Part shown: piece after piece, positions 34,489 through 39,959 of the stretch
Numbering within the stretch: the first letter of the stretch is position 1
Layout of the letters: each line of letters begins with the position of its first letter
Program-made: the position numbers and the translations under genes
DNA from: Bacteroidota bacterium
GTDB lineage: Bacteria; Bacteroidota; Bacteroidia; Flavobacteriales; Crocinitomicaceae
Length of the DNA stretch: 42,036 nucleotides
Direction: 5' to 3'
Assembly (NCBI GenBank): GCA_029558435.1
Contig: JAKQEZ010000246.1
Location: 1 to 42,036 of the forward strand
Notes under the pieces: generated by a model
What the model was told of the DNA's origin: nothing
What the model saw: the letters and a program-made list of their open reading frames with translations, nothing else
The model's database searches: none

Positions 34489-35883
34489 TTAAACCTCTTC
34501 TTTTAAAGCGTTTGGATGAAATTCTCCCTCCGATTTTGCAATAACAACAGTTGCCAAACAGTTGCCCAATACATTAACACTGGTGCGTGCCATATCCATT
34601 AATGCATCAACTGCAAGAATTACACTGACTTTATCAATTGTAACTCCCTCAATTGTTGTGGCTGCTCCGGCTAATATCACAAAAGAAGCACCACGAACAC
34701 CTGCAACTCCTTTAGAAGTTAGCATTAACACCAAACATATTCCAATTTGTTCTCCAATGCTCATATTAACACCACACATTTGTGCTAAAAACACGGTTGC
34801 CAAGGATAAATATAGGGTTGTTCCATCCAAATTGAAGCTATAACCCGTTGGTAATACAAATCCAACAACTTTTTTGGAAACGCCAAATTTCTCTAAATTT
34901 TCCATTGCTTTTGGCAAAGCAGCTTCACTACTTGCAGTTGCAAAAGCCAAGCTAATTGGTTCTTGGACAGCTACTAAAAAGTCTTTGATTTTTATTTTAC
35001 TGATAAGTGCAATAGGTAAAAGAATCAATACAACAAACGCTATTAAAGCACCGTAAAGTGTTAACACTAATTGCAATAAATTCATTAATATATCGAGTCC
35101 AGATTTGGCAACCGTAGCGGCAAGTGCACCAAAAACTGCAAATGGTGCAAAATACATCACGATATCCGTAAATTTAAACATCACCTCGCTCAATCCCTCA
35201 AAAAAGTTCAACATGGTTTCTTTAGGTTTTGCTTTTTCAATCATCCCAATTGCAATGGCAAAAATGATGGAAAACACAACAACTTGCAGAATTTCATTTC
35301 CAGCAATTGATTTTGCAATGTTTTCTGGAAAAATTTCCACTAAATGATCGCGCTGATGATCCGATGTTGTTTGTTGCATCAATACTTCTGATTTTGCCAA
35401 GTCTGCTTGTCGTGCTTCCACCGAAACACCTTCTCCAGCCTTAGTAAGATTAATGGCCAACAATCCTATGACCAATGCAAAAGTGGTTACCACTTCAAAA
35501 TAAAGAATACTTTTTAACCCAATGCGTCCCAATTGTTTTAAATTACTATGTCCAGCAATTCCAACAATTAGAGTGGCAATTATAAGTGGTGCAACCAATG
35601 TTTTAACAAGGCGCAAGAAAATGGTGCCCAAGCGTTCCATTTCCAAACCAATTGCAGGGAAAGTAATCCCGACCTCTATTCCAAGTAACATGGATGTAAA
35701 AATCCACAACGACAATTTTTTGCGTTTATAAGAAACAAAAAATAAAAATAGTATTCCAGCAAATCGTAAAGCCGACAAACCATCAAATTGATTGGGTGTT
35801 GAGGTAGTAAAGATTAATGTTAGAATAACAAAATAGAGTACAAAATACAAGCCTAAGGAAGTAAACCAACTTTTTTTGTCCAT
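34489..35883 (-). CDS. Dicarboxylate/amino acid:cation symporter (GltP/DctA family)
   Basis: A 464-residue membrane transporter with sodium or proton coupling. Family motifs: the serine-rich loop ATASSEAALPKAMENL (hairpin 1), FVLPTGYSFNLDGTTLY (helix 7, substrate and cation binding) and MLTSKGVAGVRGASFVIL (hairpin 2). These fit GltP-like carriers of glutamate, aspartate or dicarboxylates; the exact substrate cannot be read. The start ATG at 35881-35883 (MDKKSWFTSLGLY) is chosen because the frame, though open 67 codons further, runs into the rpsA promoter and leader. Residues 1-60 contain two hydrophobic stretches before the usual first helix (LWIFTSMLLGIEVG), an N-terminal addition compared with GltP. 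It diverges from rpsA. Confidence 0.93.
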   Translation of the reverse strand: MDKKSWFTSLGLYFVLYFVILTLIFTTSTPNQFDGLSALRFAGILFLFFVSYKRKKLSLWIFTSMLLGIEVGITFPAIGLEMERLGTIFLRLVKTLVAPLIIATLIVGIAGHSNLKQLGRIGLKSILYFEVVTTFALVIGLLAINLTKAGEGVSVEARQADLAKSEVLMQQTTSDHQRDHLVEIFPENIAKSIAGNEILQVVVFSIIFAIAIGMIEKAKPKETMLNFFEGLSEVMFKFTDIVMYFAPFAVFGALAATVAKSGLDILMNLLQLVLTLYGALIAFVVLILLPIALISKIKIKDFLVAVQEPISLAFATASSEAALPKAMENLEKFGVSKKVVGFVLPTGYSFNLDGTTLYLSLATVFLAQMCGVNMSIGEQIGICLVLMLTSKGVAGVRGASFVILAGAATTIEGVTIDKVSVILAVDALMDMARTSVNVLGNCLATVVIAKSEGEFHPNALKEEV

Positions 35884-35981
35884 TGATACAGATTTAAGCG
35901 GTAAAAGTGATAAAATTAAGTGAATTGACAATGTAAATCCACCATAAAATAGCAAATTAAGCACATAAAACTTTGATTTTT

Positions 35982-36011
35982 TTGTATTTAAAAAGAAATG
36001 TCGTATATTTG
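35982..36011 (+). promoter_or_regulatory. Consensus promoter of rpsA
   Basis: TTG (35982-35984), exactly 19 bases, then TATATTTG (36004-36011): a perfect TTG-N19-TAnnTTTG promoter. Transcription would start near 36018, about 81 bases before the preferred start codon, so the transcript has a structured leader. Any coding start upstream of 36018 is excluded. Confidence 0.82.
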
Positions 36012-36025
36012 CGCCCTCAAAATAA

Positions 36026-36079
36026 ATCATTTCCCTCAAATGATATGTTAAACACTTTCGGAATGGAGGGTTTCCGAAA
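36026..36079 (+). promoter_or_regulatory. Two-hairpin rpsA leader with complementary loops (candidate kissing loop)
   Basis: Hairpin 1: ATCATTT / AAATGAT (36026-36032 with 36038-36044), 7 perfect pairs, loop CCCTC. Hairpin 2: TTTCGGAA / TTCCGAAA (36056-36063 with 36072-36079), 8 perfect pairs, loop TGGAGGGT. All five bases of loop 1 can pair with GAGGG in loop 2 (36066-36070). The loop-2 sequence also contains GGAGG, which resembles a Shine-Dalgarno site. The position, right after a perfect promoter and before rpsA, suggests feedback control by ribosomal protein S1. This reading comes only from pairing; no covariation could be tested. Confidence 0.5.
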
Positions 36080-36098
36080 TACAAATTTTAATAGCCAA

Positions 36099-37877
36099 AT
36101 GGCAAATCTTACACAAACGCAAGGAATTGCAGGTTTCGATTGGGAAGCTTTAGAATTGGATGGATACAACAAGATCCAACGTTCAGAATTATCAGACAAG
36201 TACGGACAAACTTTAACTTCTATCAACGAAAGAGAAGTAGTTGAAGGTACAGTTGTTGCAATTACTAAAAGAGAAGTAATTGTTAACATCGGTTACAAAT
36301 CTGAAGGTGTTATCCCATCATCTGAATTCCGTTACAATCCTGAATTAAAAGTTGGTGACAAAGTAGACATTTACGTTGAAGTTCAAGAAGACAAATCAGG
36401 ACAATTAGTAGTTTCTCACAGAACTGCTCGTATGCACAAAGCATGGATTCGTGTTAATGATGTATTACGTTCAGGAGAAATTATTACAGGTTATGTTAAA
36501 TGCCGTACAAAAGGTGGTTTAATTGTTGACGTATTTGGTATCGAAGCTTTCTTACCAGGTTCTCAAATCGATGTTAAACCTATCCGTGATTACGATGTTT
36601 ACGTAGGTAAAAACATGGAGTTCAAAGTGGTTAAAATCAACCAAGAATTCCGTAACGTTGTTGTTTCTCACAAAGCACTTATTGAGGCTGAGTTGGAAGA
36701 ACAAAAGAAACAAATTATTTCTGGTCTTGAAAAAGGTCAAGTATTGGAAGGTATCGTTAAAAACGTTACATCTTACGGTGTATTCATCGACTTGGGTGGT
36801 GTTGACGGTCTTATCCACATTACAGATCTTTCTTGGGGACGTGTTAACCACCCAGAAGAAATCGTTGAGTTGGATCAAAAATTAAACGTTGTAATCTTAG
36901 ACTTCGATGATGATAAGAGACGTATTGCATTAGGATTGAAACAATTGCAACCACATCCTTGGGATGCTTTAGATGCTAACATCGCTGTTGGTGATAAAGT
37001 TTCTGGAAAAGTTGTTGTTATTGCTGACTATGGTGCATTCATCGAAATCGCTCCAGGAGTTGAAGGATTAATCCACGTTTCTGAAATGAGCTGGTCTCAA
37101 CATTTACGTTCTGCTCAAGATTTCTTGGCAGTTGGTGATACTGTTGAAGCTGTTGTTTTAACATTAGACCGCGAAGAGCGTAAAATGTCATTAGGTATCA
37201 AACAATTGTTCCCAGATCCATGGAATGGAATTGAAGACAAATACACAGTAGGTTCTAAACATACAGCTAAAGTTCGTAACTTCACTAACTTTGGTGTATT
37301 CGTAGAATTAGAAGAAGGTGTTGACGGATTGATTCACATTTCTGACTTGTCTTGGCAAAAGAAAATCAAACACCCATCTGAATTCTGCAAAGTAGGAGAC
37401 GAAATGGAAGTGGTTGTATTGGAAATTGACCGCGAAAACAGAAGAATCTCTTTGGGTCACAAACAATTGGAAGAAAATCCATGGGATGTATTTGAAACTA
37501 TCTTCGGAGAAGGTTCTGTACACCAAGGAACAATTATCGACACAAAAGATAAAGCAGGAATCGTGGCTCTTCCATACGGTGTTGAAGGAATTTGTCCGGT
37601 TAAACACTTGAAAAAAGAAGATGGTTCTAACGCAAAAGTGGACGAAGTATTAGATTTCAAAGTGATTGAATTCAATAAAGAAGCTAAGAAAATCGTTCTT
37701 TCTCACTTGCGTACTTACAAAGAAGGTGATGACGCTACTCCAGCAACAAAAGGAGGTAAAAAAGGTGACAGCACTTCTTCAACTGTAAATGCTATCAACC
37801 AAAGCAATGAAAAATCAACTTTAGGTGATTTGGACGCATTGGCTGAATTAAAAGAAAAAATGGAGAAAGAGAAATAA
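36099..37877 (+). CDS. rpsA: 30S ribosomal protein bS1
   Basis: A 592-residue RNA-binding ribosomal protein with six S1 (OB) repeats: EGTVVAITKREVIVNIGYKS, then GYVKCRTKGGLIVDVFGIEA, GIVKNVTSYGVFIDLGGVDG, GKVVVIADYGAFIEIAPGVE, AKVRNFTNFGVFVELEEGVD, and a more divergent sixth (GTIIDTKDKAGIVALPYGVE). The C-terminal 50 residues are charged and flexible, rich in Lys, Ser and Thr, ending KEKMEKEK. The ATG at 36099 (MANLTQTQG) is preferred because in-frame ATGs at 36045 and 36063 lie within the leader hairpins; those alternatives would add 18 or 12 residues and are not excluded. It has its own perfect promoter and terminator, so it is probably a single-gene unit. Confidence 0.96.
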   Translation: MANLTQTQGIAGFDWEALELDGYNKIQRSELSDKYGQTLTSINEREVVEGTVVAITKREVIVNIGYKSEGVIPSSEFRYNPELKVGDKVDIYVEVQEDKSGQLVVSHRTARMHKAWIRVNDVLRSGEIITGYVKCRTKGGLIVDVFGIEAFLPGSQIDVKPIRDYDVYVGKNMEFKVVKINQEFRNVVVSHKALIEAELEEQKKQIISGLEKGQVLEGIVKNVTSYGVFIDLGGVDGLIHITDLSWGRVNHPEEIVELDQKLNVVILDFDDDKRRIALGLKQLQPHPWDALDANIAVGDKVSGKVVVIADYGAFIEIAPGVEGLIHVSEMSWSQHLRSAQDFLAVGDTVEAVVLTLDREERKMSLGIKQLFPDPWNGIEDKYTVGSKHTAKVRNFTNFGVFVELEEGVDGLIHISDLSWQKKIKHPSEFCKVGDEMEVVVLEIDRENRRISLGHKQLEENPWDVFETIFGEGSVHQGTIIDTKDKAGIVALPYGVEGICPVKHLKKEDGSNAKVDEVLDFKVIEFNKEAKKIVLSHLRTYKEGDDATPATKGGKKGDSTSSTVNAINQSNEKSTLGDLDALAELKEKMEKEK

Positions 37878-37997: not shown

Positions 37998-39002
37998 ATG
38001 TCAAAAATTACAGCTCGTTTTCCTTCCAACATTGCCTTGGTAAAATACTGGGGAAAATACGGGTATCAATTGCCTTGCAATCCTTCAATTAGTTTAACGT
38101 TGAAACACGCTACAACAGAAGTTGTGCTTGAAAAAAAGGAAAAAACAAAAGCTGGAATTGAACTCGATTATTTGTTTGAAGGAAAAACCAACGAAGCTTT
38201 TCTGGCTCGTATGGTGAGCTACATTGAAAAACAACCTGAATTTACTTCGCTTTTTGAGAATTTTGCCGTTCAAATACATTCAAAAAATACCTTTCCTCAC
38301 TCTACAGGTATTGCTTCATCGGCTTCGGCTTATGCAGCTATTGCTGGGGCTTTGTTAACTGCTAGTAATTATACTGCAAGCGATTTTAAACAAGTAGCAA
38401 GCAATTTGGCACGCAAAGGAAGTGGAAGCGCTTGTCGTTCTTATTTTGGACCCTTTGCTTTGTGGGGCGAGTTGCAAGAAGTGGAAAATTCAAGTAATGA
38501 ATATGCAGTGCCACTAAATACCGTTCATTCCAACTTTCAAACATTGAAGGATGCTATTTTGATTGTTGAGGATACGCCTAAAAAGGTTTCAAGCAGCGTG
38601 GGCCATGGTTTGATGAAAAACCATCCTTATGCCGAAGCACGTTTTATAGATGCTAAAAAACATGCTGCCGAAATGTTATCAACTTTGAAAGGTGGAGATT
38701 TTAATCAATTTATTTCCATCACCGAACGAGAAGCATTATCTTTGCATGCAATGATGATGACTTCAGGTGATTATTACTTGTTGATGAAGCCAGGAACGAT
38801 TCAAATAATTGAACAATTGTTTGATTTTAGAAACGCAACCGGCTTGCCAATTTGTTTTACACTCGATGCAGGGCCTAATGTTCATTTGCTTTACCCGCCT
38901 TCAATTGAAGAGCAAGCAAAAGAATTTATAGCTTCTGTGCAACATCATACAAAGTCAGTTATTTTTGATGAAGCTGGTTTTGGTGGAGAAATTATAGGAT
39001 AA
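37998..39002 (+). CDS. mvaD: Diphosphomevalonate decarboxylase
   Basis: Converts mevalonate diphosphate to isopentenyl diphosphate, the last step of the mevalonate pathway. The protein is 334 residues, a GHMP kinase relative. Motifs: SNIALVKYWGK (10-20), the ATP-binding STGIASSASAYAAIAGALL (near 100), RKGSGSACRSYFG (near 140) and FTLDAGPNVHLLYP (near 290). All are typical of the decarboxylase branch rather than of kinases. The stop TAA at 39000-39002 is directly followed by the ATG of the mevalonate-kinase gene, so translation of the two is probably coupled. Confidence 0.95.
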   Translation: MSKITARFPSNIALVKYWGKYGYQLPCNPSISLTLKHATTEVVLEKKEKTKAGIELDYLFEGKTNEAFLARMVSYIEKQPEFTSLFENFAVQIHSKNTFPHSTGIASSASAYAAIAGALLTASNYTASDFKQVASNLARKGSGSACRSYFGPFALWGELQEVENSSNEYAVPLNTVHSNFQTLKDAILIVEDTPKKVSSSVGHGLMKNHPYAEARFIDAKKHAAEMLSTLKGGDFNQFISITEREALSLHAMMMTSGDYYLLMKPGTIQIIEQLFDFRNATGLPICFTLDAGPNVHLLYPPSIEEQAKEFIASVQHHTKSVIFDEAGFGGEIIG

Positions 39003-39959
39003 ATGCAACAACAAGTAGAACAATTCAATTCCAAAATTTTGCTGTTCGGTGAATATGCCGTTTTGCACAATGGTATGGCGCTTGTCATTCCGTGTGAAAA
39101 ATTTCATGGCCACTTTGAGTTTTACCAAGGTGGAAGCAATGAGGAACAAGCTGTTGCTCTACAATCCAATGAATACCTTCGTAAATTTTGTGCTTTTGTT
39201 TCTAGCCGCATGGATGAAAAATTTGTGTTGGAAGTGAAAAAATTTGAAGCCGAATTGGAGCAAGGACTTTTCTTTCGAAGCAATATTCCACAAGGATATG
39301 GTTTGGGAAGCTCGGGCGCCTTGGTTGCTGCAATGGTATTGCGTTACTTGGTAAAAGCTAAAAACATCAAAGATGAGGTGAAATTGCAAACCTACCTCAA
39401 ACTAAAAGACTTGAAAAAGAATTTGGGTAATTTGGAGTCGTTTTTCCATGGAACAAGCTCTGGAATAGATCCACTTAGCAGTATTCTCAACGAACCAATT
39501 TTATGCAAGAATGCCAACGAAATTGTTACCACAACATTGCCTTTAACAGCCCCAGATAAACAAAATGTTATTTTCTTATTGGATACCAAACAAGAACGTA
39601 CAACGACCAAAATGATGGCTTTGTTCAACGAATTGTTGGGAAAAGAAGAATTTAAAAACAAGTTTGATAAATACGTTATAGAAAACAACAACGGTGCAAT
39701 TCAAAGTTTTTTGGACAACGATAACAAACGCTTTTATGAAGTTGTTAACGAATTAAGTGCGTTCCAAATTAACTACATGAAGGACTTTTTTCCTGAAAGT
39801 TTGCACAAAGATGTTCAAAAAGGCCTTGACAATGGCGATTATTTTCTAAAATTGTGCGGAGCAGGTGGTGGTGGTTTTGTACTCGGTTTTACGCAAAATT
39901 GGGAACAAACCAAAGAACAATTGAACAACTATGAATTAGAAGAAATCTACAGATTCTAA
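39003..39959 (+). CDS. Mevalonate kinase-like GHMP kinase
   Basis: A 318-residue GHMP-family kinase. Motifs: FNSKILLFGEYAVLHNGMAL (motif 1), IPQGYGLGSSGALVAAMVL (motif 2, ATP loop), FFHGTSSGIDPLSSIL (the acidic catalytic region found in mevalonate kinases), and LCGAGGGGFVLGF (motif 3). Together with mvaD immediately upstream this points to mevalonate kinase; phosphomevalonate kinase is the other possibility and cannot be excluded by eye. No HMG-CoA reductase or synthase gene is in the window. It overlaps nothing and is followed by the hutU terminator from the other strand. Confidence 0.88.
   Translation: MQQQVEQFNSKILLFGEYAVLHNGMALVIPCEKFHGHFEFYQGGSNEEQAVALQSNEYLRKFCAFVSSRMDEKFVLEVKKFEAELEQGLFFRSNIPQGYGLGSSGALVAAMVLRYLVKAKNIKDEVKLQTYLKLKDLKKNLGNLESFFHGTSSGIDPLSSILNEPILCKNANEIVTTTLPLTAPDKQNVIFLLDTKQERTTTKMMALFNELLGKEEFKNKFDKYVIENNNGAIQSFLDNDNKRFYEVVNELSAFQINYMKDFFPESLHKDVQKGLDNGDYFLKLCGAGGGGFVLGFTQNWEQTKEQLNNYELEEIYRF

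Follow-up and report, generated by a model that had tools for sequence, protein, structure and literature searches.

In Bacteroidota, which hardly use Shine–Dalgarno (SD) sequences, ribosomal protein S1 has been proposed to select start codons (PMC3155529), and the rpsA locus of a Crocinitomicaceae bacterium raises the question of how production of S1 itself may be controlled. This locus lies in a stretch of 42,036 nucleotides (nt) (contig JAKQEZ010000246.1 of assembly GCA_029558435.1, forward strand; the window hereafter), in which an original prediction had placed a kissing-loop leader RNA between a promoter and rpsA. In that prediction, a GGAGG in the second loop might be an SD site hidden or shown by the kiss, and an upstream CCCTC a possible competitor. 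Here we show that the leader has two hairpins, P1 and P2, joined by a loop–loop helix, K, and that this architecture is conserved via compensating change and tied to rpsA. The proposal of a non-chance kissing-loop leader going with rpsA stands, its suggestion that S1 or the state of the 30S subunit exerts control is plausible, and its SD switch and competitor are not supported. The leader is, with near certainty, a functional conserved RNA, and very probably a new control element for S1 production; in the open-access literature we found no account of how Bacteroidota cells set the amount of S1.

The perfect hairpins of 7 and 8 base pairs (bp), 11 nt apart, are present in the sequence as first described, and the first loop, CCCTC, is indeed the reverse complement of GAGGG in the second. 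Together they span 36026–36079, between the promoter and the rpsA start at 36099. The minimum-energy fold of 36017–36110 contains both P1 and P2 and is in itself moderately unusual (z −2.21; 6 of 200 shuffles fold equally well). When the energies of P1, P2 and loop–loop stacking were combined, the leader scored −21.75 kcal/mol, which was matched by none of 2000 dinucleotide shuffles of 36017–36098, and a hairpin pair of any kind with at least 5 loop–loop bp arose in 76 of these 2000. Among 2048 overlapping 82-nt tiles covering both strands of the window, the score was attained by one, the leader itself, so the claim that such stems with complementary loops are unlikely to arise by chance is upheld.

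To follow the leader in relatives, we used the best 80 of 450 loci fetched from genome records by S1 protein search, whose titles are mostly Crocinitomicaceae, Fluviicola, Cryomorphaceae and unspecified Flavobacteriales and Bacteroidetes; the nearest by S1 identity are a Crocinitomicaceae metagenome-assembled genome (95%) and Taishania pollutisoli (92%). The relatives keep the same plan in other letters: TAnnTTTG, GCACCC, P1, a short linker (median 13 nt, n = 111 leaders), P2, GCC, 2–3 bases and AUGGC, with P2 usually of the form CUUUC...GAAAUACAA. In these comparisons P2 was located through its conserved flank and P1 on energy, both blind to the loops, and K was measured as the longest uninterrupted complementarity of the two loops. 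One leader that was cut off (L024) and identical leaders were dropped before the first counts, and wrong blind P1 calls (L011, L034, L072, L109, with similar ones in the two further sets described below) were retained in the counts. In the 85 unique close leaders, K was 5.72 bp for a leader's own loops versus 3.39 bp for swapped loops (standard deviation, s.d., 0.12; maximum of 2000 permutations 3.78), and it reached at least 5 bp in 69 of them.

Five of the records are titled Glaciecola amylolytica, Planktophila lacus, Chryseobacterium gleum, Chitinophaga pinensis and Sphingomonadales (L008, L011, L018, L035, L069), and their rpsA genes are 82–86% identical to that of the window; these titles look wrong. 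Fluviicola-like leaders (L003, L013, L020, L085) have an extra hairpin, of the type TTTTC...GAAAA, between promoter and P1.

More distant leaders gave the same result. Of 100 fetched outer regions, 62 had the promoter and TACAA anchors, and hairpins were obtained from 145 of 147 leaders, the others being dropped. In the resulting 81 leaders less than 65% alike, K was 5.05 bp versus 2.71 bp when loops were swapped between species (s.d. 0.10), with at least 5 bp in 60; for the 47 of these that came from outside the close set, the values were 4.64 versus 2.81 bp (s.d. 0.13), with at least 5 bp in 30. Sixty divergent leaders held 58 distinct K sequences. Outer leaders keep the plan, and many of them now carry the G-rich strand in loop 1 (ACGGUA/UACCGU, AUGGUC/GACCAU).

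A further set was reached with the S1 of PDB chain 9zcd_A, which we take to be a Flavobacteriaceae protein. As a query it led to 13 of 395 class genomes, with S1 77–100% identical over 281 amino acids, and 12 leaders, with S1 about 80–100% identical to that chain, could be anchored (L272 had no anchors and was dropped). No S1 listed for a 199-genome sample of the order is more than 69% identical to 9zcd_A, and that sample therefore seems to be without this lineage. The 12 leaders have larger loops, on which a scan without anchors fails, so that anchored hairpins were used instead. Their P1 is of the type CCUUUU...AAAAGG in 6 of 12, and their P2 ends in CAGAAUACAA in 8 of 12. K (for example GAGUUUC/GAAACUC) has at least 5 bp in 9 of 12, and was 5.58 bp versus 4.35 bp when swapped (s.d. 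0.32), a value reached in 1 of 20 000 permutations.

The stems also covary. In a plain MAFFT alignment of 38 leaders, with the structure derived from that same alignment, 11 of the 13 pairs of P1 and P2 changed on both sides, and the covariation score was 0.289 versus 0.165 for shuffled alignments (s.d. 0.014) and at most 0.153 for slid ones; P2 columns were paired in 87% of cells. For the arms of P1 and P2, swap tests were left unused as circular, the arms having been chosen as paired. A lack of compensatory change among relatives had been named as a finding that would tell against the leader; instead, P1, P2 and K all vary in compensating fashion.

The tie to rpsA was examined in whole genomes, with order and class samples formed as groups around T. 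pollutisoli (G002). A covariance model without the loop–loop helix, R1, was built from 38 leaders of the window's close relatives, and matched each of the 86 given sources exactly once, at the leader. Of 150 whole genomes of the order, 100 were matched (E up to 0.1), and in 87 of the 150 a match preceded rpsA on the same strand, no more than 481 nt away from where S1 matched. Below the 39 genomes with the highest S1 scores rank 100 others that bear rpsA; 48 of these had an adjacent match and belong to the 87, so the matches are not explained by close kinship to the training set. Non-adjacent rows numbered 25 at the same E-value over the 150 genomes, of which 8 are contig-end places and the others are at about chance level. 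In the class sample, R1 matched 17 of 198 genomes (E up to 0.02). In a scan for hairpin pairs that used no anchors and compared each region with 60 shuffles, the region was equalled by no more than 1 shuffle in 29 of the 40 cases with an R1 match (for L164, at a place outside the leader). The same held for 9 of 20 order regions lacking an R1 match and for 6 of 40 class regions.

The 64 leaders that trained a wider model, R2, include 44 from genomes then scanned, and R1 is therefore the cleaner test. R2 gave 116 matches in 116 of the 150 order genomes, one apiece; 108 share a contig with rpsA and precede it, and the other 8 lie no more than about 640 nt from a contig end. At one of these ends (G077), the frame that follows is 62% identical to S1 over S1 residues 3–170, and at the other seven the next frames (MAEEKK.., MASEEKK.., MAESKD..) resemble, by eye, the N-termini that follow relatives' leaders, so these eight places would fit an rpsA contig that is broken. 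At class level, R2 matches were upstream of rpsA in 14 genomes (coordinates judged by eye), with 4 weak rows elsewhere. The leader remains with rpsA despite changing neighbour genes, for these vary among species (the MVD gene occurs in 1 of 74 relatives' loci, the SDF gene in 0 of 75). In the window, two mevalonate-pathway-like genes (diphosphomevalonate decarboxylase, the MVD gene just named, and GHMP kinase) lie 3′ of rpsA, at 37998–39959. Like ribosomal-protein leaders in general, the element has a covariation-supported secondary structure and stands consistently upstream of a ribosomal-protein gene.

The gene itself encodes 30S ribosomal protein S1 (NCBIfam NF004953, 907 bits against a cut-off of 720; repeated Pfam S1 domains). 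A start at 36045, which by the original prediction would have told against the leader, is rejected on account of an in-frame stop within −54 to −1 in 53 of the 85 unique leaders (the window's and its relatives'), and 36099 is supported.

A third hairpin, P3, likely holds the start codon, with the AU of AUG in its loop. In the 81 divergent leaders, GCC stands just upstream in 63 of 67 AUGGC starts and in 2 of 14 other starts. In some leaders where the second codon is altered, the upstream arm is altered too (GGUC/GACC in L188, UGUC/GACA in L192), and in the Flavobacterium-like set UCAGC/GCUGA alternates with UCAGA/UCUGA; in some others with a changed second codon, no matching stem was seen. A P3 stem is present in 73 of 93 leaders, and its length was 2.70 for own arms versus 2.05 for swapped ones (s.d. 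0.12; maximum of 5000 swaps 2.48). Because the swap test keeps lineage effects in, we grade P3 as likely rather than proven. AUACAA closes P2 and continues towards P3; its UACAA shows no variation across the 38 aligned leaders and recurs in leaders outside that set, and we consider AUACAA a candidate recognition element.

What might such an RNA do? In Escherichia coli, S1 represses its own rpsA start region, which is folded and SD-less, in competition with 30S-bound S1 (PMC10931766). Our leader is like this E. coli and gamma-proteobacterial region in being a folded leader of the same gene without canonical SD, and that region is conserved in several families within its class (PMC10931766). Here too no canonical SD precedes the start codon, with no GGAGG-like sequence in 36072–36098. 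The gamma-proteobacterial leader, which we take to consist of three hairpins without a loop–loop helix, would differ from the present one, with its kissing pair of hairpins and a third that probably contains the AUG. It also belongs to a different phylum, and a response of the present leader to S1 is supposed by analogy. Given the same gene, the lack of a conserved SD and the tie to rpsA, S1 feedback is our best guess, and we think it reasonably probable that the leader is a translational operator for autogenous control, to which S1 would bind and through which it would repress.

In our model, the 80-nt leader is a conserved RNA that acts in cis, with P1 and P2 kissing via K (5–9 bp) and, likely, a third hairpin, P3, at the start codon. 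We suppose that excess free S1 binds the compact kissing platform together with the adjacent AUACAA single strand, and that bound S1 either holds P3 closed or blocks docking of 30S-bound S1; when S1 is scarce, a 30S subunit would open P3 and rpsA would be translated. Control is placed at translation because no terminator follows P2: there are 0 terminator-like sites in 35600–36400, and P2 is followed by AUACAA. An intrinsic transcription attenuator is ruled out, as there is no terminator hairpin with U run in that stretch.

Several observations weigh against this operator. S1 is not very selective for RNA sequence, and a dedicated operator is therefore not required. K is shorter than 5 bp in 21 of the 81 divergent leaders (with blind hairpin calls), and P1 columns are paired in only 49–60% of cells of the plain MAFFT alignment, because the program displaces P1 in some rows. 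In the window P3 has just 3 bp and is weak (−2.6 kcal/mol), and by the definition used it is absent in 20 of 93 leaders, 4 of which have a missed 4-bp UCAG/CUGA stem. Finally, R2 matches just 17 of 119 class genomes, many class rpsA genes being without such a leader, and 8 of 40 fetched class rpsA upstream regions have an SD in place of it.

In these eight regions (L234, L235, L236, L238, L241, L242, L243, L245), AAGGAG(G) stands shortly after the promoter; some apparently start with TTG, and no kissing leader is evident. SD sequences being rare in this phylum, their presence at rpsA fits the view of special initiation at this gene. In three other regions, a short upstream frame lies between promoter and rpsA (MSYSIKV.. 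in L209 and L218, MSNLLIK.. in L211), which is perhaps a leader peptide.

An unlikely alternative, though one that deserves weight, is that the leader is a constitutive element, whose compact 5′ cap protects the mRNA and keeps the stretch from AUACAA to AUG open for 30S subunits, with no S1 feedback. The position of the structure at the predicted 5′ end of the transcript, followed by an A/U-rich open stretch, agrees with this, as does the high demand of the cell for S1. Many strongly expressed genes would gain from an element of this kind, yet the R2 matches in the order are before rpsA in 108 of 116 cases, with the other 8 at contig ends, and a P3 over the start codon would be odd for a pure enhancer.

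Less probable is that the leader senses a factor other than S1, such as an initiation factor, an RNase, a small RNA or the free 30S subunit. Regulation by a 30S subpopulation is described in this phylum for rpsU (PMC9976891). Against a small RNA that pairs with the loops, K is free to change, with 58 types in 60 leaders; and the linked gene is rpsA, where single-gene leaders are assigned to the product of that gene (the ‘Only’ rule of Table 1 in PMC7247131).

Very improbable is the SD switch of the original prediction, which in full would have the kiss hide or show the GGAGG of loop 2 for 30S subunits, taken here as those free of bS21. It is favoured by the sequence of the window alone. Against it, an SD-like sequence (GAGG, AGGAG or GGAGG) forms part of K in 2 of 60 divergent leaders and of loop 2 in 4 of 81, and K is reversed in polarity in many relatives. 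In many of them the second loop is C-rich (ACCG, GCCAC and so on), and therefore cannot pair with the anti-SD. By the same counts, the leader has no long conserved complementarity to the 16S 3′ tail of the kind used in rpsU-type autoregulation through an extended SD. Nor is CCCTC at 36014–36018 supported as a competitor, since the GCACCC-like sequence persists, as judged by eye, where a C-rich loop 2 cannot pair with it, and it therefore looks like promoter sequence. Chance hairpins within an A/T-rich leader can practically be dismissed: the short helices and the moderate z of the single fold (−2.21) speak for them, but shuffles, tiles, swapped-loop tests and whole-genome scans refute them.

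The feature coordinates are collected in the table. The promoter pattern shows no excess in the window (5 found, 4.97 expected by chance), and TAnnTTTG precedes P1 in many relatives (by inspection, uncounted); from the promoter, transcription is predicted to start at about 36017–36020. Right after the −7 element (36010–36018 in the window), a GCACCC/GCGCCC-like sequence recurs at homologous places in many relatives, and is probably promoter or initial transcribed sequence.

Features of the rpsA leader in the window
Feature	Position	Strand	Basis
Promoter, Bacteroidota-type, TTTG and TATATTTG	35981–35984 and 36004–36011	+	Pattern match
P1 hairpin, 7 bp, ATCATTT/AAATGAT	36026–36032/36038–36044	+	Sequence, fold, compensating changes
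P1 loop CCCTC, 5′ strand of K (CCCUC)	36033–36037	+	Own-versus-swapped loop test
P1–P2 linker, 11 nt	36045–36055	+	
P2 hairpin, 8 bp, TTTCGGAA/TTCCGAAA	36056–36063/36072–36079	+	Sequence, fold, covariation
P2 loop TGGAGGGT	36064–36071	+	
K 3′ strand GAGGG, inside P2 loop	36066–36070	+	Own-versus-swapped loop test
AUACAA, closes P2 and continues 3′ of it	36079–36084	+	Alignments
P3 start-codon hairpin (likely), GCC with GGC	36094–36096 with 36101–36103; span 36094–36103	+	GCC count and swap test
rpsA, 30S ribosomal protein S1, 592 amino acids	36099–37877	+	NCBIfam NF004953, Pfam S1 domains

As the original prediction had proposed, the leader was searched against Rfam. None of the 4227 families of Rfam 15 matched the window at gathering score, and a search by E-value in 8 of the 80 loci gave three matches below gathering score, none overlapping the leader. 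We found no S1 leader of this phylum in searches of open-access papers. Of the 20 ribosomal leaders newly described by Eckert et al. (2020), several come from Bacteroidia and Flavobacteria (PMC7247131). Their L13, S4, S15 and S16 leaders are like ours in being covarying RNAs upstream of a ribosomal-protein gene in the same class; unlike ours, they serve other proteins, S1 being absent from the 20 entries of Table 1, and the main text is without ‘bS1’, ‘pseudoknot’ or ‘kissing’ (PMC7247131). In Flavobacterium johnsoniae, rpsU (bS21) is autoregulated via an extended SD, with control by a 30S subpopulation (PMC9976891). Feedback on the gene of a 30S protein in the same phylum would be common to both, whereas rpsU relies on long pairing with the 16S 3′ end and the rpsA leader has no conserved SD; rpsA is not named where that article lists SD-bearing ribosomal genes, and in it purified F. 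johnsoniae S1 is already in use (PMC9976891). The rpsB motif, a leader for S2, also has a conserved pseudoknot, and S2 links S1 to the 30S subunit; unlike our leader, it belongs to another gene and other phyla (PMC2704228). For Flavobacterium psychrophilum, a transcriptome study places 64 structured 5′ regions in its supplement, and a section of its text names others and not rpsA (PMC9723704); an earlier notice of the rpsA leader may be within these 64.

A wider possibility, which we offer tentatively and find nearly as easy to believe as to doubt, is that a shape-coded S1 operator extends across much of class Bacteroidia. Free S1 would read the two hairpins, linked by a K whose pairs change freely, through their geometry and the conserved AUACAA, and the signal would be relayed to the start-codon hairpin. 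If this is true, the leader would be an S1 thermostat in organisms whose ribosomes are thought to pick starts by S1 and not by SD, and in other lineages of the class it would have been swapped for an SD at rpsA. The finding adds a kissing-loop architecture to ribosomal leaders. Moreover, a conserved RNA tied to rpsA is a concrete handle, as its loops, start hairpin and AUACAA lend themselves to single mutations and to paired ones that compensate each other.
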